From assembly GCA_025531455.1 (NCBI GenBank), contig JAMYHL010000011.1, positions 124,001 to 188,000 on the forward strand: a DNA stretch of 64,000 nt. The letters run 5' to 3'. This document shows positions 1-54,527 of this stretch, one piece after another. This DNA comes from Apiotrichum sp. Y4204. Its lineage: Eukaryota > Basidiomycota > Tremellomycetes > Trichosporonales > Trichosporonaceae. Made by a program: the position numbers and the translations under genes. The stretch's first letter is position 1. Each line of letters opens with the position of its first letter. The notes beneath the pieces are model-generated. The model worked only from the letters and a program-made list of their open reading frames with translations, had not been told where the DNA came from and searched no databases.

Positions 1-1343
1 CAGTTGAGGAGCTTTCGGGAAGGCCAGACCGACCTCCTCATCGTGACTGATGTGGCCGCACGAGGACTAGACATTCCAGCAATGGGTCACGTCATCAACT
101 TCGATTTCCCCTCAGGTGTCCGTGTTTTTGTTCATCGCGTCGGTCGTACAGCTCGTGCGGGGCAGCAGGGCCACGCGTGGACGTTAGTCACCAGAGACGA
201 CGTGCCGTACCTGCACGACTTGGAAACCTTCCTTGAAAGGCCCTTGACGAATAGCGACCTTTTCGGAGCGGCCCCTCGCGACAGTTTAGAGTCTATGGTG
301 GAGTATATTCGTCAGAGCCTTGACATATCGGAAGCCCAACTGGGCCCGCTCCGTGAAGTGATGTCAAGAGGGCAATCGATGTTCGAACGATCACGTTCGA
401 AAGCAAGCCGTGAAGCTTATAGATCGGCGAAGTCAACGCAGTCGACAGCATTCGGCGCTCAAGCACCCGTTCATCCTGCTTTTGGTGACTCAGATAAAGA
501 GTCCAATGGTCATTTGAAGCAACTTTTAACAACCATTCACGCCTACAATCCAACGGAAACAGTCTTCGAGATAGGCTCCCATGGGAAAGACGCCAGCAAC
601 ATTTTGATGAAGAACCGCCGAAAGACCATTGCTCAACATCAAGCTCGTTCGAATATGAAACGCAGCTTGGACAGTGAATCCGACCATGAAGGGGATCATC
701 ATGAACATTCTGTATGTGAGGGGCGGTGGTCAGTGAACTGATATTCAGACTTCGCGTCCAATGACTGCCAAACGCTCCTATCGTGATCCGAATTTCTTCC
801 TACCCCACGAAAATGTTGAAACTAACAGAGACAAAGGGTAAGTTCGGTCGGAAAGACAGCACAGAGTGATTCTCATTACCAACAGCTACTCTCTTTGTGA
901 TGGAACGTCATTCGCCGAACAGGCGCGTTCGGCAACCCTTGATCTGAACGGCGATGAGGGGGAGGCGCAGCGAGCCCAAAAGGCCAGCCAACTCAAATGG
1001 GACCGCAAGAAGAAACGATTCGTCAAGGGCGATGGAATTGGGAGTAACAACGAGAAGATGATCCGCACCGAAAGCGGCGCGTTGCTCCCAGCATCTTTCA
1101 AGAGTGGGAGGTTTCAAGAATGGAAGCAACGCACCAAGAACTCCCCTCGCAGCGATGCAGTTTCGCATTCCGGCCGCCATGCTGGAGCATCAGGGCGCCG
1201 TTCCGCTAAAGAACTGGCAACTGCAGAGACCATACTGAGGACGCGAAAGGAGAAAATGAAGGTGCGTTTGTCTTCGAAACAATTGGAGCTACTAACAGCA
1301 GCGTAAACAGAAAAACGGACGAACGTCGAAGAAACGATCGTAG
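1..1343 (+). CDS. DBP10: ATP-dependent RNA helicase Dbp10 (DEAD box), 3' part
   Basis: Nucleolar DEAD-box helicase of 60S ribosomal subunit assembly; the 5' part lies outside the window. The visible part opens in helicase lobe 2 with the motif V-type run TDVAARGLDIP, then the motif VI run HRVGRTARAG. It ends in a Dbp10 C-terminal domain: YRDPNFFLPHE, GYSLCDGTSFAEQA, WDRKKKRFVKGDG, and a basic tail ending TSKKRS. The reading frame is open from base 1. Exons are 1-711, 749-837, 886-1261 and 1299-1343; the introns (37, 48 and 37 bases) are GT-AG, and the last two carry branch-like tgat/ctaac motifs. The final acceptor could also be three bases later without changing frame. The YRDPNFF exon is what separates Dbp10 from other DEAD-box helicases, so the identity is firm. 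Confidence 0.93.
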
Positions 1344-1706
1344 TTGCGTTTTGGTTGCGACACTTTTCACCAGGATGGGAATAAAGCTTGGTATGGATGT
1401 TCCACTTGCGAGAACTTAGTAAGAAAGCCACTTGTAAGCCTACAACCAACTGCTCCAAGCTCCAACCGTGTACCGTGTAGTAATATGCGCTCAGATTGCT
1501 GCGACGGGTTTGCGTTTATAGATGCTCTGGTAGTCCAGAGTCTAGTTTTATTCACCTTCAATACTAATTCATCATTGGGCTACGAATAAATCATCACCAG
1601 GCCACAAAATGAGTTACTGGAAGAGTCAGCATATCTATCAGCGGAAGAACTAACACTTATGCGAAAACTCTTGACTTGCGTGCGTAGCGATGGAAGTCGT
1701 CATCGC
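1344..1706. other. intergenic, convergent DBP10 / pheromone gene
   Basis: This is the shared 3' flank of DBP10 and the minus-strand pheromone gene. It holds short open frames with no recognisable product, and I see no repeat. Confidence 0.5.
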
Positions 1707-1796
1707 TTAGGCGATGGTGCAGGAGCCGTAGTCGTAGAGACGGTCGTCCTCGTAGTTGCGAGGGGCCTCGATGGTGGTGGCAGTGAAGGCGTCCAT
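1707..1796 (-). CDS. MF: lipopeptide mating pheromone precursor (CAAX type)
   Basis: A 29-residue protein is read from the ATG at 1796 to the TAA at 1709-1707. It starts MDAFT, the start seen in Tremellomycete a/alpha-type pheromone precursors. It has the run EAPRN in the middle and ends in CTIA, a CAAX box for farnesylation, AAX removal and carboxymethylation. By analogy with family processing next to an Asn, the mature peptide would begin after the Asn at residue 14 and end at Cys26, rich in Asp and Tyr; this is inference. The same frame is open upstream to 1925, but MDAFT marks the real start. A TATATA run lies about 100 bases upstream. The secreted peptide would signal to a Ste3-type receptor on a partner cell; no receptor gene is visible in this window. 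The gene is too short for routine gene callers. Confidence 0.85.
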   Translation of the reverse strand: MDAFTATTIEAPRNYEDDRLYDYGSCTIA

Positions 1797-1897
1797 GTTG
1801 GCTGGATTGGTTTGGTTGTAAGAGTAAGAGGGAAGCTGGAAGGAGGAGAGGTAAGGAGCGTTGGTTTGAGGACAAGAAGCGGCCCCAAGGACAGGGT

Positions 1898-1904
1898 TAT
1901 ATAT
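1898..1904 (-). promoter_or_regulatory. TATA-like box of the pheromone gene
   Basis: An ATATATA run on the minus strand lies 102-108 bases upstream of the pheromone ATG, a normal distance for a yeast TATA element. It is the only strong TATA run in this upstream region. Confidence 0.5.
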
Positions 1905-1930: not shown

Positions 1931-1937
1931 TCTTTGT
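1931..1937 (-). promoter_or_regulatory. possible HMG-type pheromone response element
   Basis: The minus strand reads ACAAAGA about 135 bases upstream of the pheromone ATG, and a second ACAAAG core lies on the plus strand at 1984-1989. Basidiomycete pheromone response elements (as bound by Prf1/Mat2 HMG factors) have an ACAAAGGG-like core. The match is partial and could be chance. Confidence 0.25.
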
Positions 1938-2249
1938 ACCATTTCGCCTTTGCGAGCTGGTATCACAAGCACATCTATGGCTAACAAAGCGCTTCGTTGC
2001 AACAGAACATCAATGATTACCAGATGAGGGATTGCCGATGATGATTAGCAATGATGGACTGTGTATGTCCGATGTCTCGCGTTCACGGGGGTGGGACGAG
2101 CGCGCCAGTCACGCAGCCAGTGCCTGACCGGAAAGACGCCCATTGCGATGTTGGCCCCTGAATGCATTGTGTTATGTGTACTGTACCTGTGTAGCTGTGT
2201 GTTGAGTGCGCAATGTGGTCACCGCAACTCTGCATCTTGTGCGTGTACA

Positions 2250-2281
<32 letters not shown>

Positions 2282-3735
2282 TGTGTATGTGTGTGTGTGT
2301 GTCTGAGTGTGTGTGTCCTGTGGCTGGTACGTGCCTGCCTGTGTGGCCGTGTGGCCGCGTGTGGCCTGTGTGTGCAACATGCAAGGCGTTTGTAAGTGTA
2401 CACAGTGTGCTTCTGCGGTGCATGCTGTGTGAGTCATGAGTCTGTGTAACCTCGCGTGCCTGTTTGTCTCGTGTCTCAAACAGTCACTATCCCTACCCAC
2501 TGGCATGTTTTGATTGTCTAATCGATCTGTTCATTTGTCACTTTGTCTTTCCGTGTACATAGGCTTTCAGGGATTGCTACACAAAAGCCATAGTCTCTGG
2601 GTTCCACCAGATCATGGGCCTTCGTTTGAATGTGTGTGCACTTTCATAGTGGAAAGTACAGATGAGTTTCGGCGAATCCAGGGGCAGTTGAGACCATGAT
2701 CTGATGCATGTGAGTGATATGCAACTACGTGCCCGCCATGCCCGATCTATTAATCTATTCTTCCCAGCACGTCCTCACGTGTGCGGGGCGAGAGGGCCGT
2801 CCGGAAAAGGCACAGTTTAGACGAACAGACATGCCAATTGGCCCATCCCAAGTCTTCTCAGAAGGTGCCAACGATGGTTGAGTCATGCCCCAAACCGGAC
2901 AACACAATTGTGTATCGTCGTAGGTGGTCGACACTCATGGTGCTGTCTAACACAAACGCAGCACTTTTGTTTGCCAGCTTGCTCCGATGGCATCGGCCAG
3001 TACAGGACTCCCGATTGCTGCATGAAGCTATTGTCCTTAACGACAAGTGCTGCACTCCGCATGTTCGACGATTGTCGTGTTGATCTGGGACGTACCCGGC
3101 GCGAGGCAGCTGAGGGATGATCTGCATGTATGTGCGCATCAGCAGCGCGTTCTTCTCCAGAGAACTGACCAGTCCCACAGATGGAACTATGGCAACGCGC
3201 TCCAATAGTGATCCCTGTTAAGTCGTACGCATATACGCATCGAGACACACTGACAGTGACTTGTCCTCCACATGCAATGCAACAAACCGCGTCCCCGCGT
3301 CCCCTCGTCCCCTACCCAAGAGCTGGCATCCGCTGCGGGCCTTTACCATCCAGATACTCCCAACAGTTGCATCACGAGACCCAAGATGTGTGAGGCACCG
3401 GCGTATAACAAAAACCCGGAGCACGTAGTAATGCTGTCAATACATGCAGGCGTTCAGACATAGAAAGTCCACTGTGTTGTGGGGATCTCGCAAGGCTAAA
3501 GGGAATTTAGTGTTACAGCTCCCGATGTACAGTAGAGGAATAGAGGAAAACGCCCAACCTATTCCTCATACCCGTCACATAGTGCCACACATAACTGGCA
3601 GTCGCTCAACTGTACTGATTTGTTCATGCATTTTCTCCGCCGCGTAAATGATGCGAACTCTAACACCAGACGGCTGACGCTGATCTCATTCACACATCAA
3701 TGGACCTGAACTGTTAGAGACAGTGTGAGGGTATT
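1938..3735. other. intergenic region upstream of pheromone gene, downstream of UBP6
   Basis: It contains the (GT)n tract listed separately and only short, motif-free open frames. I see no gene, tRNA or element. Confidence 0.45.
2251..2317. repeat. (GT)n microsatellite
   Basis: About 67 bases of nearly pure GT with a few interruptions (gtat, gtctga). The His/Thr-rich and Cys/Val-rich reading frames over it are artefacts of the repeat. Confidence 0.95.
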
Positions 3736-44110: not shown

Positions 44111-47100
44111 ATGTCTCTGCTACCGCCAGTGCAGCCAGCGACAAAACGCTTCAGCTCACGGTTTGAGGGAATAACGGATCTCTGGTGAGCACAGAAGTCA
44201 ACAGCGCATGTCGGATTCGCGAGCGACTCCCAATTCTTCACCTTGTGGTGCACAGAGCTCCGTGCTCCATGAACTTCATGCTTCTTGTGCTCCTAGGGGC
44301 TGCAAGCCAACGTTAATGATCTGAATGGGAGCTGACGGTCGCAGTGCATTACCCTCAATCGCAGAAGACACCATTCTGGCAACGCTTCGCGAGCGTTATG
44401 CCAGCTCTCAGCCTTACACGGCTGTAGGCCCATCAGCGTTGGTGTCGATCAACCCGCTTACTTTCCTTCCCACCAACGGCGATTCGGCTCTACAGGACTA
44501 TGTAACAGAGTACTACCGTTCCACTGGCGACGACGAGGTTGGCGCAGCCTCTCCCCTCGAACTTGGGCCGCACATCTTCCGCCAGGCGCTGGGTGCATAC
44601 TATAACATGCGTCGGACCGGTCAGGATCAAATCATGATTATGCTGTGAGTTTGCTGATGTTTGTCTGTTATTGACGGATTCAGCGGCGCAACCGGCTCAG
44701 GAAAAAGTGAGATGCGTCGCCTGGCCATCAAAGGCATCTCAGAGGTGGCGGTTGCTCCTCACGGCAAGAAAGGTTATAAAGTCGGAGCCCAAATCGCCAA
44801 CGCAGAGGTGAGTGAAAGTTCATCCGGGGACCCATTGGAGCGCCATTCCTTGAGGTAACAGCTCAATGCTCACCCTGTCAGTTCATCCTCGAGTCGTTCG
44901 GCAACGCACATACGATAACCAACGACAACGCCTCTCGGTACGGCAGCTATACAGAACTCCAATTTACCGATCGCGGCCGTCTGGAGGGTGTCAAGACAAT
45001 TGATTATTACTTCGAGCGCTCTCGCGTCTCTCAGCCACCCGCCAACGGTGAGCGTAATTTCCATGTCTTCTACTATCTCGTGTCCGGCGTCGATGGCGAG
45101 GAGAGGCAGCACCTTCATCTTAACAACATCTCGGATTATCGTTATTTGCAGTGCCGTGCGCGCCGTGCCGGACCGAGTGACCGAGAACGTTTCCACCAAC
45201 TGAAAAACGCCTTCCGCACTGTTGGCCTCAGCACCCGCCTGGTCGCTCAGCTTTGCCAACTGTTGGCCGCCATTCTCCACATCGGCAACTTGCAGTTCAC
45301 AGAGGACCCAGGCATGCACGAAGGCGCGATCTGCATGAACGTCGAAGTTCTCGACATTGTTGCCGAGTTCCTTGGTGTCTCGCACGACGCACTGGCCGAG
45401 CTCTTCTCGTTCAAGACCATTCTTGTCCGTCGGGAAGTTTGTACCACTTTCCTCGACCCTGAGCAAGCAGAATCCGTCCGTGATGAGCTTGCTCGCACAC
45501 TTTATTCGCTTCTGTTCTCCTGGCTCAACGAGCATCTCAATCAAAGGCTCTGCAAGGACTCGTTCGGCTCATTCATCGCTCTCGTAGACTTCCCAGGCCT
45601 TCAAAACAACTCCGGGCCCACTCTTGGCATCAACTCGGTGGATCAGTTTTGCTTCAACTTCGCCAACGAGAAGGTGCACAACTGGGTCCTTCATCGCATT
45701 CACGAGGTACCTCTTGCGGAGGCCATGTCCGATCAGATGCCTCTTGAGCGCATTCCCTACTTTGACAACACCGAGTGCCTCAAGATCCTATCCGATCCCA
45801 AAGGTGGTCTCATTGCCATTGCCGATGACCAGGCAAAGCGCAAGAGGACTGATCAACAGATGCTTGACCAGATGTCCAAGCGGTACATGGGTCATGCGTC
45901 GTTCCAGGCCGGAAACATGGACCGGAACGGCACTGCGTCATTTACGGTCAACCACTATGGCGGTCCTGTGTCGTACTCCATCGAATCGTTCGTGGAGCGT
46001 AACGCGAATGAAACCAGTGCCGACATTCTCCGTCTCCTGCGTGGTACATCGACGGGAATCACGAATGTGCCCGACCACCAAGGGTCAAACAACCCTTTCA
46101 TCCGCAGCCTTTTTTCTGCCCGTTCCATCGCTACGCAGGCTCACCCCCGAAATGACGACACGATTGTTGCTGCCCAGCAGCCCGTGAAGCCGATGCGTAC
46201 TCCGTCCGTGCGGCGGAAGCAGCGCACTCGGCTGTCCTCTGTGGCGGAGGAGGACGATGCCGAGGTCGGCGGAGGTAACGACGAGGGCAACGCAGGAACT
46301 CATCTGCAGTGTGTCGCCGGCCAGCACTGGCAGGCACTCCAGAATTTGTTCACTACCTTTGATCAGGCACAACCGTGGTACACATTCTGTCTTCGACCAA
46401 ACGACTCTCAGCTTCCAGCGCAGATTGAGACCCGCTCAGTTAAAGCGCAGATTCGCAGTCTGGGCTTGACGGAAATTGCTCTCCGTTTGAGGACCGATTA
46501 CGAGGTGCGCATGACGCACGACGAGTTCGCAGACCGTTACGCCGAGGAGTTCGCGGAGCGCGCAATCGGTTCCCAAGGAACGCCCGCCGACCAACTGCGT
46601 GATCTCAAGCGTGTTCTCAAGCTCAGCGACAACCAAATGGCGATTGGCTTGAAACGCGTCTTTCTGTCCCACAACGCCTTCCACCGCTTCGAAGACCGCC
46701 TCCGCGAACAGGATGGTGAACAACAACGGCCGCAACTCGATGCTCGCGATCGCGTTGATCCGTTCGCACCAGGGCAGCGTGCAACCTCGCCAGAGCCGGA
46801 AGCAATGTTTGACTACCATGGTGGAAATGACTCTGCTGCGGCGCTACCTCTGGTGGCCAATGCTCAACCGATACCTCGGGACTCCCCCTCGGACTTGGAT
46901 GAGGATGCTCGTGGTGGATTTGCTCCGAGTCAGGCCACCAGCCCTTGGGGTGACACTCACTCCAATTTTGGTTCAGAGTCGTATGCTCCCTCTCGCAACA
47001 TGTTCCGTGACATGGAAAAGAAACCCGGCGAGAAGGAGGTCCTCGACAATCTTCCCGATGAGAACGAGGTAGTCGAAGAGTATAAAGAGTCCCCAGCACG

Positions 47101-50100
47101 CCGCCGCTGGGTGTGGCTCTGTCGTGCTCTTACTTGGTGGTGTCCTGATTTCCTCATTTCCAGCGTTGGTCGTATGAAGCGCCAGGACATCCGGCAGGCG
47201 TGGCGTGAGAAGCTCGCGATCAACCTCATCATCTGGTTCATTTGTGGCTGTACCATTTTCGTTATCGCTGTTCTCGGTCTTATCATCTGTCCTCGCCAAC
47301 ATGTTTACACCGAAGCCGAACTGAACTCGCACAACTTCAAAGATAAACCCTCGAGCACGTTCGTTGCCATTCGTGGGGAAGTGTTCGACTTCACCAAGTT
47401 TTGGAATGTGCATCACAATATTGTGCCCGTCGTCAGCCAAGACGCGGCGATGAAACCCTACGGTGGTGAGGATGTCACGGCCCTCTTCCCCGTTCAGGTC
47501 TCTGCCCTCTGTAATGGATGGAGGCAGCCGCCTGGGCTCAACCCATACGTCACGTTGGACACTACCAACTCGACAGATCGCAACACCAAATATCACGACT
47601 TCCGCTACTTCACCAACGACTCTCGTCCCGATTGGTACTTGGAGCAGATGATTACCCTCCGCTCGCAGTGGCGTACCGGATTCATGGGCTACACCAAGAA
47701 GGACGTCTCGTTCAAAGCTAGGTCTGGCAAGATTATCGGGATCATCGACGATTATGTCTACGATCTCACTGCATACGCCCAACAGGATGGCGGATCAATC
47801 GCACCACAAACTCCGGACAGCGATCTTGCACAGGCTCAGCAAGACAAGAACTTCATGCACCAAGCCATCGTAGACGCTTTCCGCTATCACAATGGCGCCG
47901 ATATTTCCCAAACGATTACCCAACTCGAGAATGTAATCGGCCCCGAAGTTCTGCAATGGCAGCGGCAATGTCTTCGCAATCTGTTTATGATTGGCAAGGT
48001 CGACACACGTGACTCGGTACAATGCCAGTTCTCAACGTATATCCTTCTCGCTCTCTCATGTGTGATGGTCGCCGTGATCGGGTTCAAATTCATCGCAGCG
48101 ATTCACTTTGGCCATTCGCGTGCCCCCGAAAATCACGACAAGTTTGTCATCTGCCAAGTGCCGTGTTATACCGAGGGTGAAGAATCGCTTCGCCGGACAA
48201 TTGATTCACTGGTCAAGCTCCGGTACGACGACAAACGCAAACTTCTGTTTGTGATTTGTGATGGCAACATCAAGGGTTACGGTAACGAGAAGCCTACACC
48301 AGCAATCGTTCTCGACATTCTCGGCGTGGACCCCAATCTCGACCCCGAACCACTCTCATTCCAGTCTCTGGGTGAAGGTGCCAAGCAACATAACATGGGC
48401 AAGGTATACGCCGGTCTCTACGAATGCTCTGGACATGTCGTGCCATACGTTGTGGTTGTAAAGGTAGGCAAACCGACGGAGCGCCCTAAGCCGGGAAACC
48501 GCGGAAAGCGTGACTCTCAAATGCTTCTCATGCACTTCCTCAACAAGGTATGTTTATTTAATCTCAAGTTTGATCAGATTCTAACTCCCAGGTTCACTTC
48601 AGTTCACCTATGAACCCACTGGAGCTGGAGATGTACCACCAGATCAAGAACGTCATCGGCGTCAACCCCAGTTTCTACGAGTATCTGTTCATGATTGATG
48701 CCGATACAACCGTTCACGAATTGTCACTCAACCGCCTTGTGTCGGCCTGCATGCACGACAAGAAGATTATCGGCATCTGCGGTGAGACCTCCATCGCCAA
48801 CGCCAAACAGTCGATCGTCACCATGTCACAGGTGTATGAGTACTTTATCTCGCACCACCTTGCAAAGGCGTTTGAGAACCTCTTTGGTTCAATCACGTGT
48901 TTGCCTGGTTGTTTCACCATGTACCGTCTTCGTACCCCCGACACACACAAGCCTCTGTTCATTGCGAATTCTATCATCCACGACTACTCCGAGAACCGTG
49001 TGGACACACTTCATCTCAAAAATCTGCTCCACCTCGGTGAAGACCGTTATCTCACGACGCTGGTTCTCAAACATTTCCCTAATTACAAAACCAAGTTCGT
49101 TCGTGATGCGCAGGCGCAGACGGTCGCACCAGACTCGGGCAAGGTGTTGTTTTCTCAGCGTCGTCGATGGATCAACTCGACAGTGCACAACATGGCGGAG
49201 CTCATCTTCCAGGAGAACCTTTGTGGTTTCTGTTGCTTCTCCATGCGTTTTATTGTGCTCATCGACCTGGTGTCAACTATCATTGCTCCTGTCACTGTGG
49301 CCTACGTGAGTATTTGGTCTGGGGCTTGCCGCTGATCCGCAGATTGGTTACCTCATCTACATTATTGTTGCTTCCGGTGATACGATCCCAATTCTCTCAA
49401 TTGCTATGCTTGCCGCCATTTACGGTCTGCAAGCGCTCGTCTTTATCTTCCGCCTACGGTGGGACATGATTGCGTGGATGCTTTTCTACATTTGCGCTAT
49501 CCCCGTCTTCTCGTTCTGGCTGCCCCTTTACTCGTTCTGGCGCATGGACGACTTCTCTTGGGGTTCAACTCGTCTTGTTGTTGGAGACAACGGCCAGAAG
49601 AAGGTTATCCATGACGAGGGCAAATTCGATCCCAAGTCCATTCCGTTGAAGAGCTGGAACGACTACGAGAACGAACTGTGGGACCAGGAATCGAACCACT
49701 CGTACAACAGCGGATGGGCTCCACCTCAAAAGTCCGAGTACCTGGGCACCTCTCGGGCTGGATCCATGTACCAGTCAATCCTCCGTCCAGATGAGTCCAT
49801 GTACGGTGGACGGGAGTCTGCGTACCACGAGTCACAGTATGGTGGCCTGCGTACACATTCTCCTGTAGGGTCGTACGAGGGACGCGCCGCGTCCCGTGGT
49901 GGCTCACACAACGGATCGTTCTACGCACCCCCACCTCGTGGAACGTTCTACGATGTCGCCCCTCGCGGTGACACCGCCGGACCGGCAGACGCAAACAGCC
50001 TGTACGCGCCCAGCTTCTACGGTCAACCTGCTCTCCAACCCGTTACGAGCAACTATGATGGCGGCCTGCAGGCCTCGCGCAGTGCCGACAGCCACGGTGA

Positions 50101-50314
50101 GGACATCAGCGAGGCCCAACTCGAAATGTCAATCCGCCGCATCTGCCAGGGCGCCGACCTCGACACGCTCACGAAGAAGGGTGTCCGCAAGCAGCTCGAA
50201 ACAGAGTATGGCACGAACCTCGTGCACAAGAAGGACATTATTAACCGTCTCATCGAGACCGTTCTATCCGGTAGGGAACAGTGGACTATTCACTTGCTGA
50301 CAGTCTCAGAATAA
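44111..50314 (+). CDS. chitin synthase with myosin motor-like domain (class V/VII type)
   Basis: Plasma-membrane chitin synthase fused to a myosin head, 1938 residues. Exons: 44111-44184, 44345-44644, 44684-44807, 44882-48547, 48592-49305, 49343-50270, 50304-50314, all in phase. Order: short N-terminus ([27 protein letters not shown]); myosin domain with P-loop GATGSGKS, switch-I-like [13 protein letters not shown] and switch-II-like LVDFPGLQ; membrane segment [20 protein letters not shown]; cytochrome-b5-like domain ([14 protein letters not shown]); second membrane segment; glycosyltransferase with [33 protein letters not shown] and the signature [11 protein letters not shown]-terminal membrane helices; and a DEK-C-type end ([21 protein letters not shown]). 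The ATG at 44111 restores [18 protein letters not shown]; starting at 44325 would lose it. The last intron (33 bases) is stopless and could be retained. Confidence 0.92.
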
Positions 50315-52392: not shown

Positions 52393-52773
52393 TGTGATGG
52401 ATGAGTGCGGTGAAGAATAGATGGAAAGAAGACTTTTGAGCCTGTGCGAGTGGCCGCAAGACACACCGGACAGAGATTCCAAAAAAATAAAAATACAGTC
52501 TCTGATCTAATCGGTGACGGATCGACGGACTTGGCACGTGACATTCACATGAAGTACATGTGATCATGTGAGCTCCCCCTTCGCGCCCTTCGGCCCCTTC
52601 CATGACAGAATCTACACGTCATACAATTTGATACAGAGCATCATATCCACGTGTATATCCACATCCTCCTTGCTGCCTCTTGGCTGAACAGACAGTTGTT
52701 GTGACGTTGCGAATGGAATTATGGATCCACAACCACACCCACTTGAGATCCGGGAACTTTCAATCCCTTGACA
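52393..52773. promoter_or_regulatory. divergent promoter region, RSA4 / homeodomain gene
   Basis: 381 bases separate the two start codons and must hold both promoters. I see no clear TATA box or known motif. Confidence 0.4.
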
Positions 52774-54527
52774 ATGCTCAAAGGCAATGATTATCCATCG
52801 CCAGAGGTTGGCACGATGGATATGACATCCGAGCTTGCCAACCAGGCTGCAGCCGAAGCGGCTGTTGCTGCAGCGATCACAGAGGCAAGCGCCGCTTCAG
52901 AATCGAACGGCGACGAGGCACTCCCCCCCCCGCAGGTGTCGCACGAGAACGGTTTGGACGTACCGGCCGCGATCTCCAGTCTCCCCAGTTCCAGCACGCC
53001 ACCCAGTCTACCCGGTATCAGCATCTCCAAACCAGCACCAGATCCGTCAACCGTGCCTGCATTCCAGCGACTTCGGGCCACTCCGGCTCCGTTTCAGTTT
53101 GGCGCCCCGCATCGCCAGGCGCCGGACAGTCCGTTGACCAATTCGCAACAACTCGCCGTGCTTCGAGAGGCATATGCGCGTAACCCCAATCCTGGGAAGA
53201 AAGAACTCGAGGTCCTTGCCGAAAAGACCGGACGGCCATGGGCGAAAATACGCGAATACTTTCGCCAGAGGAGGAGTAAGCTTCGCGGTCTGGCAGATCT
53301 CGAGACGATGGAAGAGCCAGGTCGGGCGTCTGGATGGTGAGCAAGCTGGGGCTACGGAAGTACTCCTGAACCTCATGCAAGAGTTCTTATCAATACTCAC
53401 TCATTCTAGGCTTCAGGTCACATATCGTCCAGGTCCCTCCACCGCGGTTGTATCGCAGTTGGCCTTGTACAACGCATACAAAGTTCGCTTTGATCCATAC
53501 GCAACGACATCCCCGCTTCTTGCAGGACAGGAGCTCATTCAGCTGGCGTGTGCTACGTATCCCGGGTGTGAGATGGCCCGAGATGACGGCGATTACGTCC
53601 TTCGTGGGTTGAAAGAGAAGGACGCGCCGGCGCCGGAGAATGAGTGGGACCGCAGCGTGGATGCACTTGTGGAACCGTTACGAGGTGCCACTTGGTGAGT
53701 CCGCGTGGTGCAAGCATCTGCAAGCGCTCTACTGGACACTGTCATCTAACTCCAGGCTACTGTCCAACTATCAACATCAGCCTGACTCGAGTATATCGCC
53801 GAGTGTTCCTCAGACGGAGATTTATTCAGCATATGCTGCCCGTTTCTCGACATTGCTCTCCGATGTGGATCACTCCGGCCCCGAAGTGGATGCCGATGCA
53901 GAGGCGGAGCTGAAAGAGTTTGAAGCCAACATGGCCGCCGACGATCCTGAGGTGGACGACATCAATCCATTCCTCCCGCCGGCGCCAGACGACGAATGTC
54001 ATCATGCGGATACCCACAGCCACACGCCGCACGAGACAGAGACGGAGGAGGCCGCCGGGGACATTCTTCCACCGCGTGAAAACCGCCTTCTAAACCCTGT
54101 CGAGCTGATCACGCTTGTGAAAATGACCTTCCCCAAGTCTGAGGCTATCGTGGACGAAGGAGGACGCTTTGTGATTCGCGGGTTGGAGAGACGAGATGCG
54201 GTGGAGAAAGGGCGAAATGGTGTACGAGCAGTGGACATGTTTCCATTTGCATTGGCTTCGCACCCGTCGCCCTCAGACCCGTCACATCCGTTCACGTCCT
54301 TGTTGAAGCGCAAACTGCAGCTTTTGACCCCCGAACCGGGGCCTGAACTCGAGCCGAAGCGACGAGCGACGAGTATCGGAGTCAACATTCCTCCTATGAG
54401 TATGAGTGCACTGCCGGTCGTGGAGGAGGAGTTGTGCCCTGAAGATCGTGAGCTGATTCAAGGCCTCACGAGGTTTAGAAACAGCCGGCTAGGACGTGAG
54501 GTTAGAGACGTCTGTGTACAACAGTAG
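52774..54527 (+). CDS. divergent homeodomain protein with two winged-helix (RFX-like) repeats
   Basis: A 539-residue presumed nuclear protein from exons 52774-53336, 53410-53694 and 53756-54527. Residues 119-173 form a homeodomain of normal length (no TALE insertion): NSQQLAVLREAYARNPNPGK, ELEVLAEKTGRPWAKIREYF, RQRRSKLRG. Recognition helix positions 48-53 read YFRQRR instead of WFQNRR, so the near-invariant Asn51 is Gln. Two related segments follow. Repeat 1 begins WLQVTYRPGPSTAVVSQLAL and ends DDGDYVLRGLKEKDA; repeat 2 begins WLLSNYQHQPDSSISPSVPQ and ends DEGGRFVIRGLERRDA, with an acidic insert inside. Their pattern (WLL..Y, Y..Y, ..P..E, RGL) recalls RFX/ARID2-type winged helices. The role is unknown; a mating-type homeodomain factor is possible but unproven. 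Confidence 0.8.

Follow-up and report, generated by a model that had tools for sequence, protein, structure and literature searches.

The window analysed here is a 64-kb stretch of DNA, positions 124001-188000 of contig C13 in an assembly of 48,889,515 bases and 182 contigs. Near its left end the minus-strand frame at 1707-1796 translates to MDAFTATTIEAPRNYEDDRLYDYGSCTIA followed by a stop. The original prediction had placed a 29-codon frame ending in a CAAX box at these positions and on this strand, which was confirmed by translation. The TATA run that it had claimed about 100 bases upstream was found at window positions 1897-1904. In window coordinates the locus contains:

1..1345 (end approximate), plus strand: 3' part of DBP10, a DEAD-box helicase (Helicase_C 4e-16, DBP10CT 9e-24)
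1547..1552, minus strand: AATAAA, candidate poly(A) signal some 155 bases beyond the stop; in both homeologs
1707..1796, minus strand: predicted pheromone precursor CDS (MF, alpha-class); ATG, 28 codons, TAA; intronless
1710..1721, minus strand: CAAX box CTIA, read from the translation of the frame
1719..1754, minus strand: predicted mature peptide YEDDRLYDYGSC or EDDRLYDYGSC, S-farnesyl Cys methyl ester
1755..1769, minus strand: EAPRN, the putative site of N-terminal processing; cleavage would follow Asn or fall one residue further on, in front of Glu
1897..1904, minus strand: TATA box (-108 to -101), within a block identical in both homeologs
1932..1937, minus strand: ACAAAG, resembling a pheromone response element; in both homeologs, motif picked after the fact
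1984..1989, plus strand: second ACAAAG in opposite orientation; in both homeologs, motif picked after the fact

The start codon is the first in-frame ATG after an in-frame stop at -216. Three out-of-frame ATGs at -214, -178 and -146 each lie upstream of the TATA box and are therefore probably outside the inferred leader. On its other side the gene adjoins DBP10, which begins left of the window, where its DEAD domain was found (5.1e-21). A GT-rich simple repeat tract occupies window positions 2148-2450 upstream of the pheromone gene. When 144 kb of C13 were scanned, at least two ACAAAG motifs were present in 30 of 2875 segments of 250 bases. Smut pheromone response elements have been given as ACAAAGGGA (PMC3248468, excerpt), and Mat2 binds pheromone response elements before the pheromone genes of Cryptococcus (PMC3744442, excerpt).

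To judge how often a frame of this kind arises by chance we used the definition M-X(15-60)-C-[ILMVST]-[ILMVST]-X-stop (PMC6730849, excerpt), which describes the pheromone frame, and compared the window with 40 dinucleotide shuffles of itself. The window holds five such frames, which is not significant against a shuffle mean of 3.8 and a maximum of 8. A CAAX frame alone says little about whether a gene is real. When a start of the form M[DE]xF was demanded in addition, one frame was observed in the window and none in any of the 40 shuffles. An Asn followed within two residues by Glu or Gln near the Cys was likewise seen once (shuffle mean 0.2, maximum 2); this feature is weak evidence beyond chance. 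In the genome four MDAFT-type starts were found (two for the reversed control pattern), two of which are the copies of the pheromone gene. The starts on C98 and C112 were rejected as extra pheromones: each opens a different frame, and neither a stop nor a CAAX end occurs in the 60 codons read.

The codon usage of the frame is strongly biased. Of its 28 codons after the ATG, 23 end in C (P = 5.4e-9 against the local base composition) and 25 in G or C (P = 1.7e-5). Elsewhere in the window, the open frames of KRR1, a chitin synthase and NFS1 have C in the third position of 37-43% of their codons, and against these fractions the bias of the pheromone frame gives P values of 1.1e-6 to 2.1e-5. The chitin synthase is a large one (44816-50314, plus strand; Chitin_synth_2, 1.5e-119), preceded by a long open stretch.

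Searching the whole assembly with the peptide returned two matches at 100%, on C13 and C51, i.e. one per homeolog. C51 (40.6 kb) aligns to C13 at 93-94% in two long pieces, while a last piece of 411 bases is 79% alike. Over a homeologous block of 20.5 kb the identity is 93.2%. Within it the pheromone CDS is identical at 90 of 90 bases; identity is 95.3% in the adjoining 300 upstream bases and 79.5% in the intergenic stretch from 300 to 1000 bases upstream. Identity falls to only about 70% in the columns some 450-750 bases upstream. Since 1361 of the 20410 90-column windows of the block (6.7%) are also free of differences, the identity of the CDS alone is modest evidence. Only one identical run, 125685-125801, is 90 bases or longer in the stretch from 125071 to 127705 of the contig, and it contains the CDS. 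If A is also allowed in the CAAX definition, each 20 kb homeologous block holds two such frames, the pheromone frame and one ending in CVSA; the latter differs in four residues between the homeologous copies.

Left of the window, at C13:119249-120207, a STE3 receptor gene was detected (PF02076, E 6.1e-43). In both homeologs it shares the strand of the pheromone gene, at a distance of 5.5 kb. After removal of two introns, spliced by eye, it reads through in both copies to give a product of 323 residues. The two homeologs are 97.6% alike, and their proteins share 319 of 323 residues. The best of 82 receptor matches was VHUM_00825 of Vanrija humicola (46%), followed by receptors of Kwoniella, Cryptococcus amylolentus, Saitozyma, C. 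gattii WM276, Papiliotrema and Filobasidium. The best ten include the Filobasidium receptor FFLO_06159 and a receptor of C. amylolentus CBS6273, and to our knowledge no a-class receptor is among them; C. gattii WM276 we take to be MAT-alpha. In a tree of the query and 12 matches, none of them known to be a-class, the query pairs with V. humicola at 97/96, and FFLO_06159 groups with two Hydnum receptors across the midpoint root. FFLO_06159 has been placed in the MAT-alpha group, in a study that gives the Ste3-alpha of V. humicola under another accession (PMC9210288); we took that protein to be the product of the VHUM_00825 gene. The STE3 of CBS6273 groups with the A1/alpha alleles (PMC6561019). 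The nearest relatives of the STE3 on C13 and C51 thus suggest that it belongs to the alpha class. Comparing the receptor with solved structures gave no match at E 0.01.

The surroundings of the two genes are those of a mating-type locus. From left to right C13 carries ATG7, an NDC80-like gene, MYO2, TSR1, STE11, a kinase in the place of IKS1, a C2 protein and STE20, and then STE3, a zf-C2H2_2 protein in the place of REI1, DBP10 and the pheromone gene. MYO2 was recognised by its Pfam myosin head, STE11 by SAM and Byr2-type Ras-binding domains and STE20 by PBD and kinase domains; IKS1, REI1 and NDC80 are candidate names taken from partial domains and position. Further left, at about 68.4-69.0 kb of C13, lies a homeobox gene interrupted by two short introns. 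Its distance from the pheromone gene is 57 kb, and 50 kb separate its homeobox exon from STE3. Its spliced piece at about 68.5 kb matches PF00046 at 5.1e-11, and a homeolog, 91% alike, is present on C84. From its pattern we take the helix WFQNRRSRRAK to be of HD2 (SXI2) type. With these inferred labels, STE3-alpha and SXI2 (HD2) lie on one contig with STE11 and STE20 between them, which is the A1 arrangement of a fused MAT locus. The locus resembles the published fused MAT of Trichosporonales with STE3-alpha plus SXI2 (PMC6730849, excerpt).

Pattern and Pfam scans of C13:44001-94000 revealed no second homeobox, but they also missed the known one, whose homeobox is split by introns. The window itself contains a homeodomain protein at 52747-53340 on the plus strand (PF00046, 1.6e-06) with a homeolog on C125; it is not obviously a mating gene. 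We did not favour it as the HD gene of the locus, since STE11 and STE20 are on the opposite side and the gene at about 68.5 kb is a better candidate. Further homeobox matches on C122/C123 and C24/C79 are not obviously MAT genes either.

Further homeologous stretches compared were C122/C123 (89%), C24/C79 (86 and 90%), C84/C13 (90 and 93%) and C98/C112 (96% over 996 bases). The stretches compared occur in two copies, mostly 86-96% alike, and both MAT copies are of one allele; a hybrid or a strongly heterozygous diploid would fit these data. For KRR1, the best named match is Vanrija pseudolonga (75%), with Cryptotrichosporon and Kwoniella at about 70-72% and another protein at 78%. Together with V. 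humicola as nearest STE3, these matches may point to a placement with the Trichosporonales.

The pheromone profile PF08015 did not match the frame, and in one run no control matched either. Short divergent pheromones can escape this Pfam model, so a match to it was not taken as a defining feature. A homologue search with the peptide extended by 11 leader residues to reach the minimum length retrieved no candidate pheromone. In literature text EAPRN gave unrelated matches only, and the peptide string had no match among 5.39 million papers searched, outside which lay S1 Text of PMC6730849 ('Pheromone genes of Tremellomycetes'). The peptide is unusually acidic and tyrosine-rich and, judged from its sequence, may be new as a peptide.

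Taken together, the gene is very probably an alpha-class farnesylated mating pheromone precursor (MF) of a fused MAT locus, from a Tremellomycete probably related to the Trichosporonales. The direct observations behind this reading are the frame and its conservation, its codon bias, the linkage to STE3 and other MAT genes and the second identical copy; the original prediction of a pheromone gene is borne out by the STE3 linkage in a MAT-type neighbourhood, the fully conserved homeologous copy and the strong codon bias. That automatic annotation would miss such a gene, as also predicted, fits the detection of pheromone genes by script or by hand in other studies (PMC6730849, PMC12510652, PMC5103461 and PMC9296135, excerpts). 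The gene is an ordinary, apparently complete member of a well-known class.

Processing, export, regulation and the receptor partner we infer as follows. In the 29-residue precursor Cys26 of CTIA would be farnesylated, the three residues behind it removed and the Cys then carboxymethylated, and the N-terminal part would be cut off at EAPRN. Since E16 follows Y15 just as E follows Q in QEAHPGGMTLC, the mature peptide is predicted to be YEDDRLYDYGSC or EDDRLYDYGSC. Once exported, this lipopeptide would act on a partner of opposite mating type by activating its a-class Ste3 receptor; the nearby STE3-alpha would sense the pheromone of the partner and not its own product. Expression is probably raised by starvation and by pheromone signalling via HMG-factor sites of the ACAAAG type. 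A search of the assembly for ICMT has little bearing on processing, since bacterial and archaeal controls matched too. One ICMT-family match, C172:610194-610397, holds a TAG that its counterpart on C93 lacks, which may be an intron effect.

Three other readings of the frame were weighed. That it is a chance open frame which happens to end in a CAAX box draws on how common CAAX frames of this length are (five in the window against 3.8 on average in the shuffles). It is contradicted by the linkage to STE3, by the strong bias towards C-ending codons and by a CDS identical in the homeolog while the intergenic DNA upstream is only 79.5% alike. Despite the shuffle-like frequency of CAAX frames we thus rejected this reading, which is extremely improbable. 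A silenced or relic gene is somewhat easier to imagine, although still unlikely: a hybrid-like genome whose two MAT copies carry one and the same allele might never mate, and its pheromone gene would be nonfunctional. Both STE3 copies and both homeobox copies that were found are indeed of one type, so that no complementary receptor was found in the assembly. However, the frame, the TATA box, the ACAAAG boxes and the AATAAA are intact in both copies, and STE3 reads through in both.

The remaining reading, a prenylated peptide of the MAT locus that signals to its own cell type via the nearby STE3, in unisexual development or density sensing and not in partner recognition, has a very small probability. 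Unisexual reproduction through shared parts of the pathway has been described for Cryptococcus (PMC3744442, excerpt), and QEAHPGGMTLC is much less acidic than the predicted peptide; by established knowledge, however, standard pheromone wiring is cross-type. With a mating pheromone precursor as the preferred reading, a more specific proposal may tentatively be made, which we consider possible though below even odds: the core of the alpha class would have been replaced by the acidic, tyrosine-rich YEDDRLYDYGSC (four acidic residues, one basic), unchanged in two subgenomes about 7% apart and present in double dose in a hybrid that has two like MAT loci. Such a core would imply that the specificity between ligand and receptor has shifted in this lineage.

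The gene supplies the missing pheromone gene for the MAT locus of a hybrid-like Tremellomycete genome. At 29 residues it is of a kind that sets mating specificity and tends to escape gene callers, and its case was decided by the linkage to STE3 and the homeologous copy. It also defines a peptide that mating assays can use. What is known about fungal pheromones is not altered by it.

Compared with known systems, the MDAFT start and the EAPRN site are presumably features in common with the Cryptococcus precursor, and the tremerogen core sequence of Tremella mesenterica presumably differs from the peptide found here. As in Cryptococcus MF-alpha and C. heveanensis, the small CAAX precursor has a Glu near the predicted mature start and shares its locus with STE3 and STE20. 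At 29 residues it is shorter than the precursors of C. depauperatus (37; PMC9296135, excerpt) and C. heveanensis, whose MFA1 and MFA2 products are 39 residues long and terminate with CVIA or CIIA instead of CTIA (PMC2873909, excerpt). The Cryptococcus alpha peptide used in assays is the farnesylated, methylated QEAHPGGMTLC (PMC6772093, excerpt), in contrast to which the core here is acidic and Tyr-rich, with no Pro and one Gly. Tremerogens of T. mesenterica are pheromone peptides of the same class, and mature tremerogen a-13 begins with a Glu that is conserved in Cryptococcus (PMC2873909, excerpt). Each MAT copy here has one pheromone gene, while heterothallic Cryptococcus has several (PMC12510652, excerpt). 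In 24 Trichosporonales species a single contig carries both the HD and the P/R locus at a distance of about 55 kb, STE11 and STE20 lie in the interval, and one pheromone gene is found near STE3; allele A1 consists of STE3-alpha plus SXI2, and hybrid species with two MAT alleles are tabulated (PMC6730849, excerpt). The locus described here agrees in having one precursor near STE3, and STE11, STE20, the IKS1 candidate and MYO2 in its core; it also holds DBP10 and the REI1 candidate, while the main text of that paper names neither DBP10 nor REI1. The P/R locus of Kwoniella likewise has MF, STE3, STE20, DBP10, REI1, ATG7 and the C2 protein (PMC12510652, excerpt), and in Naematelia sinensis DBP10 and ZNF622 accompany STE3 (PMC13085929, excerpt), as do DBP10 and the gene in the REI1 place here. 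Naematelia and, with some exceptions, Kwoniella species are described as tetrapolar (PMC12510652 and PMC13085929, excerpts), whereas here a homeobox gene shares the contig of MF at a distance of 57 kb.
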